Source of the DNA: Bacteroidota bacterium
Lineage (GTDB): Bacteria; Bacteroidota; Bacteroidia; B-17B0; Aurantibacillaceae
Direction of reading: 5' to 3'
NCBI GenBank assembly: GCA_018267655.1
Contig: JAFDYB010000086.1
Location: 1 to 64,000 of the forward strand
DNA: 64,000 nt
Shown here: one piece after another, positions 1 to 6,738 of the stretch
How positions within the stretch are numbered: position 1 is the stretch's first letter
Layout of the letters: each line of letters starts with the position of its first letter
Made by a program: the position numbers and the translations under genes
Notes under the pieces: model-generated
Database searches by the model: none
Told to the model about the DNA's origin: nothing
What the model saw: only the letters and a program-made list of their open reading frames with translations

Positions 1-192
1 ACAGTTTTATTTTCTTGGGTTTTGTTTTGTTCGTTGTTTGTTTTTGCTACAGTTTTATTTTCTTGGGTTTTGTTTTGTTCGTTGTTTGTTTTTGCTACAG
101 TTTTATTTTCTTGGGTTTTGTTTTGCTCGTTATTTGTTTTTGCAACAGTTTTATTTTCTTGAGTTTTATTTTGCTCCTTGTTTGTTTTTACA
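1..192 (-). repeat. 48-bp tandem repeat, about four units
   Basis: Units start at 1, 49, 97 and 145. The first two are identical, the third differs by a few bases and the fourth is more diverged. A fifth, broken unit starts at 193. Each 48-bp unit keeps the frame of the giant coding sequence and encodes 16 residues (AKTNNEQNKTQENKTV). The array touches the window edge, so its full copy number is not visible. Confidence 0.95.
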
Positions 193-3100
193 ACAGCTTT
201 GTTCGTGTTATTGCCGTTTACTTTATTGAGTAGATTAAGGGCTTCGTAACTTGATTTTAAGGATAATGCTAAGAACTTTGATTTTTCATTTTGATTGTTT
301 GTTTGGGACGATTTAATTAATAACTGTTTTGATTCGGCATTTAAGTCATCTGCATTTTGTTTTATTTTTAACTGACTTTCGTTTAAGTTACCCAAAATGG
401 TTTGTTTTTTGCTTTCAAATTCTAAATTATATGAGTTAATTAAATTTGTATATGCCACATTTCCTTTTTGATTTAATTGTTCATTTTTTTGCTGAATTTC
501 ACCACTGTTTAACGTATTTAAATTTTTAGAATTTGATTTCACTACATAATCAGGATATATTTGCATTAAATCAGCAATTAAACTTTTTTGTTTTGTGTTT
601 ATAAGCATTTCATTGTCTTCTGCATTACCTATTATTCCTAACTTAGATGAAATACTAGTTTGAGTATTTGCATCACTTCTTAATGCATTTGACTTATTTT
701 TTAGTGTTGAAATTTCAGCGGCGCGCTCTTCAAATGAAGTGGCTTTATCAGGATTAACTTCTTGCAACTTACCTAGCATTTCAGTTATTGCGTTTGAATT
801 GGCAGAAAAATTAGCATCGTTAATTTTTTTAGTAATTACAGAGGCCTCCATTTTTGTGTCGTTACTTTTATTTTCTAATTCTTTTACTTTAGTTAATAAG
901 CCCTCTTTTTCAACACCTTGTTTTGTATTTGCTTCTGACCTTAAATCAAATGCTTTAACATTTATTTCCTCGGCGTAACTGTTCAAGCTATCTACTTTTA
1001 TTTTTAAATCAACCGGATTATCAGTATAAGTAGGTTGGCTATTTATTTTCAATCTATCTTCTTCAATTTGCTTTATCTCACTCAAAGCTTTTACAACCCC
1101 TGCATTTGCATTTTTATTTGTTAGCGCAATATTGTTTTTTTCAACATATTTTAATACTTCGTTAGGCGTTGTATCATTTTTAGCAAGAGACTCTAAGGTT
1201 ACTGTATTTGTTTTTTGATTGCTGTTAATCTCTGAAACATTATTTGATTTTAAATTATTTGTGACAGTACTTGTGTTTACAGAAATGTTAGTTGGATTGA
1301 CCTGCGGTTCAGTTGTTTGATTGGTTGTGTTGTTGGCTTTAATATTATTTACAATAGGTGTGTTAATTTTAGTATTTATTTTATTAAGCTGCTTAATTGC
1401 CTCAACTTGTTTTGAAACAACTTCAATAAGTATATTTAATTTATCGGTGGCACTTTTTGATACCGTGTCATTTAGATCTTTAGTAAGCGATTCTAATTTA
1501 ACCTTTATGTTTGCAACTTCGTTTTTATTGGAAGTGTTTAGCAAGGATTCATTTTGAGCAATAGCTCCTTGCAAGTGCGTTATTTCTGCTTTATTTGCTT
1601 CAAGTAATGATTGGTATGCGCTTGTTTTTAAATCAACGAGTTTAGTTAAATTTTCATTAATCGATTTAACAGATTGATTTAAATTTATTTGTGCTGTTGT
1701 GTCAACACTAACATTTGTTGGGGCTTTATTGGCCGAAGTTTTAGCAACCTGTAATTCAATATTCGGGTTGTTCTTTTTGAGTAAATTTATTGCTTGATTT
1801 TGTTTTGTAATAGCTTCTGATTCTTTCTCTTCGGCGTTACTAATGCCGCCTAATTTTGCGCCGGTGCTTTGTTGAGAACTGGCTTCAGCTCTAATTGATT
1901 TTGCATTAGTATAATCAGTTTGCGCATCTGCTGTAAGTTTTTTAGCTTCAGTTTTATCAGCTTCTGAAATATTGCTTTGCGAAATTAATGTTTGGATATT
2001 TTTATTGTTTACATCAAAAACATTCAAGTTGTCTGACTTTGTTATTTCAGCAGCTTCTAAATTTTTTTGATTAGCTTGATTTTGTAGTTCTCTACTTTTA
2101 GCAAGCATTTTGTTTTTTTCTTCTCCCGATAGTTTATTGGCTTCTGATAAGGTTTTTAAAGACTCTTCTGAAAGTTTATCAGCTTCATCAGTTAATTGCT
2201 TTGGGGTTTTTCCAACAGCTTCACTAATATTGTTTTTGGGCATTTTTTTTGCCTCATCTTTTGCTTTAGCTACACTTTCGCGTAATTGTTTTTGCTTTAC
2301 ACCTGCGTCGTTTATTTTTCCGTCGGCAATTATTTTTAATTGCTGCGCATTTGTGTTTTGATAGGCATTAAAATCAAAGTTTTGATTATCATTTGAAGTT
2401 AACGACGAATTTAAAGTATTTAGTTGCTTTAGGGTTTCATCATTGTTAGTTGAGTTTAAATTTATTAGACTGTAATTTTCTTTTTGTTTACTGATATTAG
2501 AACTTGCAGTAGAATTATTTAAGTCAATTGCAAGTTTATTATTAGCAATTATTTGTTTTTGATTTTCTTTTTTCAGAGTTTCAAGTTTTTGAATTTCTTC
2601 TGAAATTATTTTTTTATCGCCTTGTGATTTTACTTTAAATAATTCTGATTTATTGCTAGCAATTGCTTCATCAATTTCTTTATTGTATTTTTTTAATTGG
2701 TTTATGCTTTTATTAATTGATTCTTTGGTTTCAACATTATCTATTCCCGTTGTGTTTTTATATTTACTCTCAATTGATTCTGCAGCAACAACATTTGCCG
2801 GTAACAACATGTTTTCTTTGATATTAGCTGCTTTTTCACTTTGCTCAATTGCTATATCTGAATCTTTTGAGGACACTTTTTCATTAACAATTTTATTAAA
2901 AGTTGATAATTGGTCGTTTGCTAAATCTGAATCTGTTTTAAGTTTGTTAAGCTTTTCATTATATGAGTTAACTTGTTTTTCTTTTTCTATTTGTTCGATT
3001 TTTAAATCTTCTATTTTTTTCTCTAATTCAATTTTTTGTTTTCGTTTTGCTTTATTTAATTCATTTTGAGTATCACTAATTTCTTGTTTAATGTCTTCTA

Positions 3101-5219
3101 AATCTTTTTTTGCAATATCAGCATCTGCTTTTAATTGATTGTATTGTTTTTCTTTTTCATCGGCATCGTCTTTTATTTCTTTAAAAATAGTTTCTGATGT
3201 GTTTTTATATTTTGACTTTTCAGCTATTTTACTTTGTAAATCATTTAACTTATTTAACGATTCTTTAGTCTCTGTTTTATTATTAGCAATCTTTTCAAGC
3301 TCGTTAGCGTAAGCAATGTTTAATTTTGCTTCTTCTGTTTTATTATCAGCATCTTGTTTTAATGCGGTCGAATATTCAGTGATTTTTTTTGAGTTTTCAG
3401 TAATTTTAGTTGCATTGTCTTTTAAAATTTGAGCGTTTTTAAGTGCATTTTTTTTCTCATCGTCTGATGTAATTTTTTGTGCTGCTTGCATGGCCTCATC
3501 TGCTTCCTTATTTTTTGCATCTGCTTCAATTTTTTTTGCATCTGCAAGTTCTTGAGCATCGTTAGCATCTTCACGCAATTTTACGGCTTCCTTTCTACTC
3601 TCTTCTGCATCTTGTTTTGCAATAGCCAGCAAGTGTTTATTGTCCTTTTTTGTATGAGTGCTATCCGTATTAGGGCTGTTGCTTGCAGTAGAGTTTCCGA
3701 TAGGTTGATCTTGCTTAGTATTGTTAGACGAAACTTGTTGCTCATTGGGTAATTGCAAGTGATTTTCCCCTTCATTTACATCGAGTTTAGCTTTGTTTTC
3801 GATGATTTTTAAATATTGTAAATAGCTATCGTCATTTGGAACCTCATCAAAATAATTAATAATTTTTAATATTCCTTTTTCGTAACCTATTGTTTGTTTA
3901 TATGGCTTACTTGTTTGCACCAAGGGCAAATTTATGCCCTGAGACTGCGTAGTTAAACCAGGGGTTTCAACCGTAAAAAGCAATTTTGCTCCATTGGGTA
4001 ATTCAAGCTGATAATCTCCATTATCTTGTGCTGTGTAACGTCCTACCAGTTTACCGGTACCAATGTCTTTTACTATTATTACAGATTTTAAACTTTGCTC
4101 GGCATTTTCTTTTACAACAGTGCCTTTAATAGCCATTACGTCAATAGGTTTACGATCGGTATTTATTTTCAATACGTCAATTTTACCCGGAGGGCTTTGC
4201 CTTGCTGTGCTAAAATAGGCTGTTTTTTCAGTAGAATCAGTTACATACAAAAAATCATCGTCTGGTGAGTTAATTGGAAACTCGAGGTTTTGAGGAGCGT
4301 CCCAAGAGTCTGTTTCTTTATTATAGGTAGATTTGAATATGTCGTACCCCCCCATACTATTGTGACCTTTGCTGGCAAAATAAAGCACTTGGCCATTGGG
4401 GTGAAGAAATGGATAATCGTCATCATAAGGTGTGTTTATGCCTTTAACTTTAACTGCTTGTCCAAAACTACCATTAGGCAATCGTTGTTTAAAATAAATA
4501 TCTCTTCCATTATCGTCATTATCGCCATAGCTGCTATAGTATATTCTGTCTCCTGCAGATGGATTATACAATACTGTTTTGTCTTTCCTTTTTTTATCAA
4601 GCGAGGTTTTAAAATCATCTGTTTTAGCTAGTAGCTTTCCTCCTATATTTTTTAGGTCATAGGCTCTAAAATAATCAGCATCGTTAAGTTGCTTTTTACT
4701 CTTAACTTCTAAATCTGCTAAATTACTAAGTAGGCGTTTTCCGTATACACAGGCAGCTATCTCTCTATCTACTTGGTGTTTTTTTAGTTGAGATGAAGGT
4801 GCTGATTTTTTAAATTCATTGTAATACTTAATTGCTTCATCAAATAAATAATTAACATGGTTTGCTCGTCCATAATAAAACAGAACTTCTTTAGAAACGT
4901 CTGCAAGCTTTGTGTAAGCATATTTTAAATAAGGCAAACATTTTTTTTTATCAACTTCGCAAAACAACATACAAACGCCAAGTTTATAATTGTATTCTGC
5001 TTCCTTTGGATAATTTGAAACGAGTTGTGTATATAAACTATTTGCTTCGCAATATTGCTCACTTTCAAAAAGTTTAGCTGCATTTTTTTTTAACTCCTCA
5101 GGGCTCTGTTGCGAATATGTTTTAGAGAAGTAAAATAAAAATATTACACAAAAAAGTATCTTAACAATTTTAGGTAAAGGAAATAAAAAAACCGCTAAGG
5201 TATTTGACCTTAAAATCAT
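1..5219 (-). CDS. Giant exported TPR/PD40 protein with repetitive coiled coil (C-terminus outside window)
   Basis: One open frame runs from an ATG at 5219 to the window edge, about 1,739 codons with no stop. An in-frame stop lies two codons upstream of the ATG, so the start is well fixed. Residues 1-37 form a signal peptide ending near TYSQ. Residues about 40-200 are TPR-like helices. About 210-335 carry PD40 propeller blades (for example YPFLHPNGQVLYFAS and GGYDIF). About 360-435 resemble a carboxypeptidase regulatory domain. From about 480 to the edge the chain is Lys/Asn/Glu/Ala-rich coiled coil with internal repeats and 16-residue tandem repeats at the end. TPR-PD40-regulatory architecture is typical of Bacteroidota OmpA/PorE-like envelope proteins. 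The OmpA domain, if present, would lie beyond the window. An envelope scaffold or surface fibre is inferred. The precise function is unknown. Confidence 0.85.
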   Translation of the reverse strand, partial: MILRSNTLAVFLFPLPKIVKILFCVIFLFYFSKTYSQQSPEELKKNAAKLFESEQYCEANSLYTQLVSNYPKEAEYNYKLGVCMLFCEVDKKKCLPYLKYAYTKLADVSKEVLFYYGRANHVNYLFDEAIKYYNEFKKSAPSSQLKKHQVDREIAACVYGKRLLSNLADLEVKSKKQLNDADYFRAYDLKNIGGKLLAKTDDFKTSLDKKRKDKTVLYNPSAGDRIYYSSYGDNDDNGRDIYFKQRLPNGSFGQAVKVKGINTPYDDDYPFLHPNGQVLYFASKGHNSMGGYDIFKSTYNKETDSWDAPQNLEFPINSPDDDFLYVTDSTEKTAYFSTARQSPPGKIDVLKINTDRKPIDVMAIKGTVVKENAEQSLKSVIIVKDIGTGKLVGRYTAQDNGDYQLELPNGAKLLFTVETPGLTTQSQGINLPLVQTSKPYKQTIGYEKGILKIINYFDEVPNDDSYLQYLKIIENKAKLDVNEGENHLQLPNEQQVSSNNTKQDQPIGNSTASNSPNTDSTHTKKDNKHLLAIAKQDAEESRKEAVKLREDANDAQELADAKKIEADAKNKEADEAMQAAQKITSDDEKKNALKNAQILKDNATKITENSKKITEYSTALKQDADNKTEEAKLNIAYANELEKIANNKTETKESLNKLNDLQSKIAEKSKYKNTSETIFKEIKDDADEKEKQYNQLKADADIAKKDLEDIKQEISDTQNELNKAKRKQKIELEKKIEDLKIEQIEKEKQVNSYNEKLNKLKTDSDLANDQLSTFNKIVNEKVSSKDSDIAIEQSEKAANIKENMLLPANVVAAESIESKYKNTTGIDNVETKESINKSINQLKKYNKEIDEAIASNKSELFKVKSQGDKKIISEEIQKLETLKKENQKQIIANNKLAIDLNNSTASSNISKQKENYSLINLNSTNNDETLKQLNTLNSSLTSNDNQNFDFNAYQNTNAQQLKIIADGKINDAGVKQKQLRESVAKAKDEAKKMPKNNISEAVGKTPKQLTDEADKLSEESLKTLSEANKLSGEEKNKMLAKSRELQNQANQKNLEAAEITKSDNLNVFDVNNKNIQTLISQSNISEADKTEAKKLTADAQTDYTNAKSIRAEASSQQSTGAKLGGISNAEEKESEAITKQNQAINLLKKNNPNIELQVAKTSANKAPTNVSVDTTAQINLNQSVKSINENLTKLVDLKTSAYQSLLEANKAEITHLQGAIAQNESLLNTSNKNEVANIKVKLESLTKDLNDTVSKSATDKLNILIEVVSKQVEAIKQLNKINTKINTPIVNNIKANNTTNQTTEPQVNPTNISVNTSTVTNNLKSNNVSEINSNQKTNTVTLESLAKNDTTPNEVLKYVEKNNIALTNKNANAGVVKALSEIKQIEEDRLKINSQPTYTDNPVDLKIKVDSLNSYAEEINVKAFDLRSEANTKQGVEKEGLLTKVKELENKSNDTKMEASVITKKINDANFSANSNAITEMLGKLQEVNPDKATSFEERAAEISTLKNKSNALRSDANTQTSISSKLGIIGNAEDNEMLINTKQKSLIADLMQIYPDYVVKSNSKNLNTLNSGEIQQKNEQLNQKGNVAYTNLINSYNLEFESKKQTILGNLNESQLKIKQNADDLNAESKQLLIKSSQTNNQNEKSKFLALSLKSSYEALNLLNKVNGNNTNKAVVKTNKEQNKTQENKTVAKTNNEQNKTQENKTVAKTNNEQNKTQENKTVAKTNNEQNKTQENKT

Positions 5220-5305: not shown

Positions 5306-5313
5306 TATATTTG
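5306..5313 (+). promoter_or_regulatory. Bacteroidota -7 promoter element
   Basis: TATATTTG matches TAnnTTTG and lies 24 bp before the ATG at 5338. No clear TTTG is seen at -33. A TTG candidate start at 5311 falls inside this element, which favours the ATG at 5338 for the gene downstream. Confidence 0.5.
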
Positions 5314-5337
5314 TATTTACACAAAAATAAAATACAT

Positions 5338-6738
5338 ATGAAAATTAAATTTACATTAGCCGCTTTATTACTTCTATCATTGAAGCAACAAGCGCAAATT
5401 AACGGCATAAAGGTAGAGCCGGCCGGTGAGCTTGATATGAGTACAATGCATGGTGCTGTTAATTCAAATCAAAAAACAATGACTGGAAGTATTTCAGACA
5501 CACTGTATTACTTTTTCAACAAACACCATTTCCGCAATACACCTGCAATGCAAGGTTTTTACACGGTTAAGTCACCAGCTCCTACTTCTACCTTAAATTT
5601 AGCTGAGTTTGGGGCTTCATTTTTAAATGGAACCGTAGTAAACAACACACCCGTAACACTAAACGCAGTAAGGTTTGTAGCTTCGCGCCAAGCCAATTCT
5701 GTTAGCTCTTCCATTCCTGTAAGAGTGTATGTATATAACGCAAATCCTGCGGGCTTACCAGGCGCTAAAGTTGACTCAGCAATGGCGGTAGTTACAAATA
5801 CCGGTGGAGCATTTTACACAGCAACATTCATTACTCCTAAAACGTTTACAAACTCGTTTTTTGTTTCTTACAAACCTATGCCTTCTAATCCAGCCGATAC
5901 CTTAAAAGCATGGATAACAAATTCTTCTGTTGGAACTACAACTGCAAGTGTAAACAATGGCGAGGGCTTAGGATATACTCGGATAATTGCTGGAACATCA
6001 ACTAACAGTTTGTATGTTAACACTAATTTATATGGCGCATCTGGTAGTGTTCCAAGCGATCCGGAGCCAATTGTAGCACCAATTGTATCGTTTAATTTTG
6101 CTTCAAGCTTTTCAATGTCGCCTGCTACATCTACAGCTATACCAGGCGCATATTGCACAAATACATTAATTATGTATAATAACACTACTACCGGCACAAG
6201 TGTTTTAGAAAACCGTCAATTTAATTATAACAAGTTTGTGCCTTATTGGAAGCCATTTAGCTATTCAGTTCAACCGGTTGCTGCCGATTCAATTTATAGC
6301 TGGAATTTTACTATGCCTCAAGTAGGAACATATTATTCTAAAAACTTCTCACAAACATATACTGTTACAGGTAATACAAGCGGATCGCTTTTAGTTCGTT
6401 ATAAACACGGCTCTGGTAACACCTCTCAAAACACTAACGATTTAAGCAACCAAACATATTCTGTTGTTTCTTGTGGCTCTACAGGTTTAACTGAAAATTT
6501 AATGAATGCTCAGGCTTTTGTTTTCCCTAATCCAAACAATGGTAGCTTAAATATTAAAAATTTAGAAGGAAAAAACACATTAACTGTTTATAACTTAATT
6601 GGCCAAGAAGTATTTAAAACTACAACCGAAGATAGTTCTGTAAACATTGATGTAGCAAAAGAACCTTCAGGCAACTATTTATTAAAAATAACAAATGCTA
6701 ACGGCAGTAGTCGTGTAATGAAGCTAATTAAAAATTAA
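5338..6738 (+). CDS. Secreted protein with type A T9SS C-terminal sorting domain
   Basis: This is a 466-residue exported protein of unknown activity. The chosen ATG gives a clean signal peptide (MKIKFTLAALLLLSLKQQAQ). A TTG nine codons upstream would put extra charged residues in front of it and overlaps a promoter motif. The last ~75 residues form a type A sorting domain: a FVFPNPNNG start, then LTVYNLIGQEV, then GNYLLKI and a basic C-terminus. The body is Ser/Thr/Asn-rich and beta-like, with no recognised catalytic motif. By family knowledge such proteins cross the outer membrane through T9SS and are released or anchored after the domain is cleaved. The gene is monocistronic, with its own promoter and a strong terminator. 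Confidence 0.85.
   Translation: MKIKFTLAALLLLSLKQQAQINGIKVEPAGELDMSTMHGAVNSNQKTMTGSISDTLYYFFNKHHFRNTPAMQGFYTVKSPAPTSTLNLAEFGASFLNGTVVNNTPVTLNAVRFVASRQANSVSSSIPVRVYVYNANPAGLPGAKVDSAMAVVTNTGGAFYTATFITPKTFTNSFFVSYKPMPSNPADTLKAWITNSSVGTTTASVNNGEGLGYTRIIAGTSTNSLYVNTNLYGASGSVPSDPEPIVAPIVSFNFASSFSMSPATSTAIPGAYCTNTLIMYNNTTTGTSVLENRQFNYNKFVPYWKPFSYSVQPVAADSIYSWNFTMPQVGTYYSKNFSQTYTVTGNTSGSLLVRYKHGSGNTSQNTNDLSNQTYSVVSCGSTGLTENLMNAQAFVFPNPNNGSLNIKNLEGKNTLTVYNLIGQEVFKTTTEDSSVNIDVAKEPSGNYLLKITNANGSSRVMKLIKN

Follow-up and report, generated by a model that had tools for sequence, protein, structure and literature searches.

A giant TPR-PD40 protein of Bacteroidia with a PorE-type head, a modular helical spacer and C-terminal SPOR domains

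Introduction

What does a bacterium do with an exported protein of some 2,200 residues that begins like a secretion-system scaffold and ends in domains of another kind? The question arose from the window analysed here, a stretch of 64,000 nucleotides from a Bacteroidota genome, whose minus strand carries at 3-5219 a single open reading frame of 1,739 residues with its 3' end open at the window edge. The first-pass annotation had read it as a giant TPR-PD40 protein of the PorE/OmpA type followed by a Lys/Asn/Glu-rich coiled coil of more than 1,200 residues, and had offered three roles: an envelope-spanning fibre, a cell-cell tether or a scaffold linked to peptidoglycan.

Results

The reading frame resumes on a second contig

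Window and contig C86 begin at the same base, so that the frame is interrupted by an assembly end and not merely by the window cut. At this end (positions 1-200, minus strand) lies a 48-bp (16-residue) tandem repeat with a unit of about NKTVAKTNNEQNKTQE, and TRF and BLAST placed the repeat at only one other site in the genome, bases 1-122 of contig C20 (L003:1-122), with 96% identity. Extension to the gene end, as proposed in the first-pass annotation, was successful: the 5' part (3-5219) continues on contig C20, where the frame resumes (L003:2-1378) and runs for 458 residues to a stop at 1378. The joined protein would have about 2,200 residues, the exact length hinging on the repeat copies lost in the gap. 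From the sequences we infer that C86 and C20 are adjacent in this strain, and the join is supported because in many related genomes the two halves form a single unbroken frame of about 1,900-2,430 residues. Such one-frame homologues are found in G028 (2,245 residues, with ends 60-69% identical), G020 (2,233 residues), G003 (2,208 residues) and G034, and several of these single frames lie on chromosome-scale contigs (G003:C1, G004:C1). An assembly artefact, frameshifted gene or pseudogene, in which the two contigs do not belong together and the long frame arose by chance, might be suspected from a window that begins exactly at a contig end within a repeat, but this reading, to which we assign next to no probability, is already contradicted by the single frame shared by the N- and C-terminal blocks in many independent genomes, several of them chromosome-scale, and by the presence of the repeat on C86 and C20 only within this genome.

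The N-terminal block has the domain order of PorE

The protein begins with a type I signal peptide, identified from sequence (residues 1-36; 5112-5219, minus strand, as for all features of this gene within the window), with Gln37 at the expected +1 position. Gln37 is identical in 24 of the 25 aligned members, with no lipobox at the cleavage site; lipobox-like strings do occur in 4 of 40 members, all away from the expected cleavage site. A TPR-like domain follows (residues about 37-165; 4725-5111), in which TPR_16 scored below threshold in the window protein; as many as 10 of 25 family members matched TPR families of Pfam. Two cysteines of the TPR part, Cys83 (4971-4973, minus strand; kept in 23/25 aligned members) and Cys157 (4749-4751, minus strand; 25/25), possibly form a disulfide. 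The PD40 beta-propeller region (residues about 166-360; 4140-4724) contains a Pfam PD40 match above cut-off at residues 261-295, and PF07676 (PD40) was matched in 23/25 members. It leads into a carboxypeptidase-regulatory-like (CRD) region (residues about 361-470; 3810-4139), assigned by PF13620, which Pfam matched in 4/25 members, and by a conserved alignment block. The order TPR, propeller, CRD is present, with TPR and CRD weak in the window protein itself. Thus the giant TPR-PD40 protein first described stands as one frame with PD40 over the cut-off and a CRD-like region, with the qualifications that its TPR is sub-threshold and that the edge it runs off is the end of contig C86.

The PorE/OmpA label did not survive. 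The NCBIfam PorE model (NF052230) gave 82.5 bits against a cut-off of 600, and the CHU_0125 model (NF053607) 73.5 bits against 620; both align to residues 222-440 of the window protein, below cut-off. By this score, by the missing lipobox at the cleavage site and by the missing OmpA_C domain, the predicted protein is outside the PorE family.

The middle is predicted to be a string of short helices with a duplicated module

Residues about 525-1675 (195-3647) form a helical middle of about 1,150 residues, rich in Lys (13.6%), Asn (13.5%) and Glu (9.3%). AF2 predicted 27 separate helices of 4-60 residues in this region, separated by turns and by disordered N/T/S/Q-rich linkers, with about 73% helix (mean pLDDT 76.5, pTM 0.36); because the pTM is low, the placement of the modules relative to each other is not given by the model. 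A module of about 215 residues was detected twice, as copy A (residues about 948-1166; 1722-2378; hmmsearch domain 7e-69) and copy A' (residues about 1360-1569; 513-1142; hhalign to copy A, E 1e-31), while the module search in reversed and shuffled control sequences returned zero matches. The module occurs twice in most family members and three times in a 2,987-residue homologue (L061). A fold search with the middle region found no significant match.

A single long coiled coil is rejected on the AF2 model (27 helices, none longer than 60 residues) and on the internal module repeat. No heptad helix was seen to run unbroken for hundreds of residues, and the hydrophobic periodicity is broad (3.4-3.7); a 3.7-residue, hendecad-like periodicity of the window protein did not hold in the family, where the peak is near 3.45-3.5. 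Of the coiled coil of more than 1,200 residues, then, the K/N/E-rich helical character is retained, at a length of about 1,150 residues and in the form of 27 helices and a duplicated module. The envelope-spanning fibre is not supported, since the middle is segmented and its longest predicted helix has 60 residues (about 9 nm). A straight helix of 1,200 residues would measure about 180 nm, several periplasm widths, so that a jointed, folded spacer is geometrically more plausible.

The C-terminus carries three SPOR-like units

An OmpA domain at the C-terminus had been named as the feature that would support anchoring to peptidoglycan. Pfam detected none, either in the C-terminus of the window gene or in those of the family; three SPOR domains stand there. 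In the window gene's own C-terminus, on contig C20, SPOR (PF05036) scored 36.4 bits with a cut-off of 21, and it was matched in 24 of 27 C-termini of members, being the only Pfam family common to them. The AlphaFold model of the C-terminus has three SPOR-like units (RNP-like fold; mean pLDDT 82, mostly >90 within domains). The top Foldseek match was the CwlC SPOR domain 1x60 (probability 1.00, E 3e-3), with the DamX and DedD SPOR domains among weaker matches; because this best E value is modest, SPOR membership rests mainly on Pfam. A PDB sequence search gave no match.

In SPOR-1, Gln79 and Arg109 are invariant (in VQ[VI]GAF and IRYTAG); these positions presumably match the residues needed for FtsN septal localisation, which we take as a lead only. 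In SPOR-3, Tyr replaces the Arg found in SPOR-1 and SPOR-2, which makes glycan binding by SPOR-3 uncertain. The cell-cell tether was not borne out, the C-terminus being apparently wall-binding and Pfam detecting no surface-sorting C-terminal domain. By its domain make-up, the giant is supported as having a putative wall-binding end and protein-binding head, and the peptidoglycan-linked scaffold of the first-pass annotation gains support in modified form, with SPOR in place of OmpA as the likely link.

Both ends are conserved and, among sampled genomes, the architecture occurs in part of the class

Identity and length were computed on 40 full-length members. The N-terminal block is 60-76% identical within the family and 31-56% within the class, and the SPOR cores behave similarly, whereas the fast-evolving middle is mostly 29-49% identical within the family and 12-28% within the class. 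Conserved ends around a divergent middle point to strong constraint at both ends and weaker constraint on the spacer. Total length is 2,217 +/- 196 residues, the outlier of 2,987 residues having three modules in place of two.

A search of related genomes for the same architecture, another proposal of the first-pass annotation, found it in about 118 of the 295 Bacteroidia genomes sampled, which fall under 26 of 72 family labels (about a third), as counted with the C-terminal profile at a cut of 1e-50; the hits are mostly frames of 1,600-2,600 residues, with some fragments on short contigs. Within the window's own family each end was matched in 87/87 sampled genomes, in a few only weakly (paralogues or fragments). 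The relatives that bear a name are uncultured Bacteroidia and Flavobacteriales, among them MAGs of Crocinitomicaceae and Vicingaceae. Of 247 genomes sampled across the phylum, just two passed 1e-40, both Bacteroidia, and none outside the class. The giant is not a core division protein, because most families of the class lack it.

Neighbouring and related genes

In several distant members the gene order is a protein of about 1,500 residues, PlsY, the giant, ClpS and an M48 lipoprotein (PlsY, ClpS and M48 were named by eye from sequence); little of this order remains in the window's own family. The ~1,500-residue protein (L075:41-4057, plus strand; in this genome G000:C54:133702-137592, minus strand) has no Pfam match. 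It was considered as a specific partner and set aside, as it is present in 244/295 sampled Bacteroidia genomes and is unlinked in this genome. Neighbour clusters from 40 loci, with a family-model scan of part of the neighbours, revealed no recurrent division, T9SS, por/gld or PorP-like gene, and no Tol-Pal genes were seen linked to the giant.

Six bases past the giant's stop begins a gene for a 207-residue TPR lipoprotein-like product (L003:1384-2007, plus strand) with weak YfiO/BamD similarity. It is a possible operon partner in this genome; in relatives it did not recur next to the giant. On the other side, divergent to the giant, the window encodes at 5311-6738 (plus strand) a 475-residue secreted protein whose C-terminus resembles, by eye, a type IX sorting domain.

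Elsewhere in the genome, a 990-residue protein (L165:1659-4631, minus strand; G000:C86) with two PD40 matches, TPR-like stretches and no OmpA or SPOR match is apparently a duplicated TPR-PD40 unit. A 798-residue protein (L164:2646-5042, minus strand; G000:C79) combines what looks like an outer-membrane barrel with thrombospondin-3-like and SPOR repeats, and is a second case of SPOR in the usual place of OmpA. SPOR genes are few in this genome; across the family, many genomes have similar SPOR matches in frames of about 720-960 residues. This genome has 17 matches to the OmpA domain above the cut-off, many of them in frames of PorE-like size.

Discussion

The computed features, namely a gene that is continuous in relatives, its domain make-up, a segmented modular middle and the pattern of conservation, led us to propose that the giant is a soluble periplasmic scaffold tying envelope machinery to peptidoglycan that is septal or has been remodelled (denuded), a proposal that we consider to have about an even chance of being right. 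For this scaffold we infer a periplasmic location, glycan binding, septal targeting, a partner and a tether function. The type I signal peptide would export the ~2,200-residue protein. The three C-terminal SPOR domains, by analogy with known SPOR domains, whose target at division sites is denuded glycan (PMC12440217), would bind peptidoglycan, in the form of stem-peptide-free glycan at the division site or other remodelling zones. The head of TPR, propeller and CRD would dock a partner, most likely a complex of the outer membrane or envelope; for PorE, the TPR-WD40-CRD block has been put forward as such an interaction scaffold (PMC7192894). The ~1,150-residue string of modules between them may be a long jointed spacer, its length shifting by module gain or loss. 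The outcome would be a tether between the wall and the outer membrane (or a machine), concentrated at sites of wall cutting.

We advance more tentatively a specific form of this scaffold, a Bacteroidia-specific division-site tether in which one protein merges the TPR, TolB-like propeller and wall-binding roles of Tol-Pal, with spacer length set by module copy number. Against the scaffold proposal, the giant has no linked partner gene: its neighbours in distant members (PlsY, ClpS, the M48 lipoprotein and the ~1,500-residue protein) are not division or T9SS genes.

A rival reading is a PorE-like accessory role in T9SS or gliding. In it, the N-terminal block would hold PorP-like or trans-envelope T9SS parts, and SPOR would take the place of OmpA in the wall, so that secreted surface proteins or the motor are fixed there. 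Such a role is possible but unsupported, and we judge it unlikely. The PorE domain order of the N-block, its weak matches to the models for PorE (82.5 bits) and CHU_0125 (73.5 bits) and the presence of GldM in nearly all genomes with the giant would fit it, and a PorP-PorE-like anchoring to the wall has been proposed (PMC9143113). However, the co-occurrence is uninformative because GldM is near-universal (280/295 genomes, with or without the giant), and the giant is missing from most families with GldM. Among the neighbour clusters at the 40 loci, with part of the neighbours scanned against family models, we recognised no recurrent PorP-like or por/gld gene, and this genome already has its 17 OmpA-domain matches, many in PorE-sized frames.

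Improbable too, in our estimate, is a passive structural spacer or a general staple between outer membrane and wall, comparable to Pal or OmpA, with no tie to division or secretion. A middle that is repetitive, helical, fast-evolving and fairly constant in length agrees with such a staple, as does the 798-residue barrel and SPOR protein, which suggests that SPOR is a general anchor here. SPOR domains, however, favour denuded glycan over the bulk wall (PMC12440217). Moreover, the giant itself has neither a lipid anchor nor a barrel and would therefore need a membrane partner. As for a surface fibre or cell-cell tether, only size and helical content speak for it, and it is highly improbable given a C-terminus made of SPOR with no surface-sorting domain by Pfam, a middle that AF2 models as jointed and not as one rod, and the periplasmic action of known SPOR proteins.

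A gene of ~2,200 residues, present in about 40% of sampled Bacteroidia species and in most sampled genomes of its own family and seemingly without name or function, is a concrete candidate, open to test, for what fastens the outer membrane or secretion machines of these bacteria to the wall during division. In it, a PorE-type scaffold head, hitherto known with OmpA anchors, is joined to anchors of the SPOR type, which mark the places where the wall is cut.

The first-pass annotation knew of no described system with this exact architecture, and we found none in the open-access literature; as most subscription papers, including the main SPOR review, lie outside that scope, the novelty is provisional. 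The nearest likeness is to PorE of the Porphyromonas gingivalis T9SS, which has the same order of N-terminal TPR, PD40/WD40 propeller (five-bladed in PorE) and CRD, followed in PorE by a peptidoglycan-binding C-terminus (PMC7192894). PorE, in contrast, is a lipoprotein of about 670 residues with an OmpA_C end, whereas the giant has no lipobox at the cleavage site, a modular spacer of ~1,150 residues and three SPOR domains; it is a variant of the PorE-type TPR-PD40 scaffold with another wall anchor and a long spacer. The OmpA-PD40 proteins of the CHU_0125 type (Cytophaga hutchinsonii) resemble it in the PD40-CRD block over residues 222-426, but the giant lacks their OmpA domain, has no lipobox at the cleavage site and is far larger.

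At the other end, the likeness is to E. coli FtsN, DamX, DedD and RlpA, in which a C-terminal SPOR domain binds denuded septal glycan. These are much shorter proteins, membrane-anchored or lipoproteins, with one SPOR domain each, whereas the giant carries two to three in tandem on a secreted scaffold. For three of the four the membrane or lipid anchor is documented (PMC12440217).

The comparison with Tol-Pal is drawn at the level of repeat type. There, a PD40-type propeller (TolB) and a TPR part (CpoB) are functionally joined to the wall binder Pal at division sites, and the roles are split among separate proteins.
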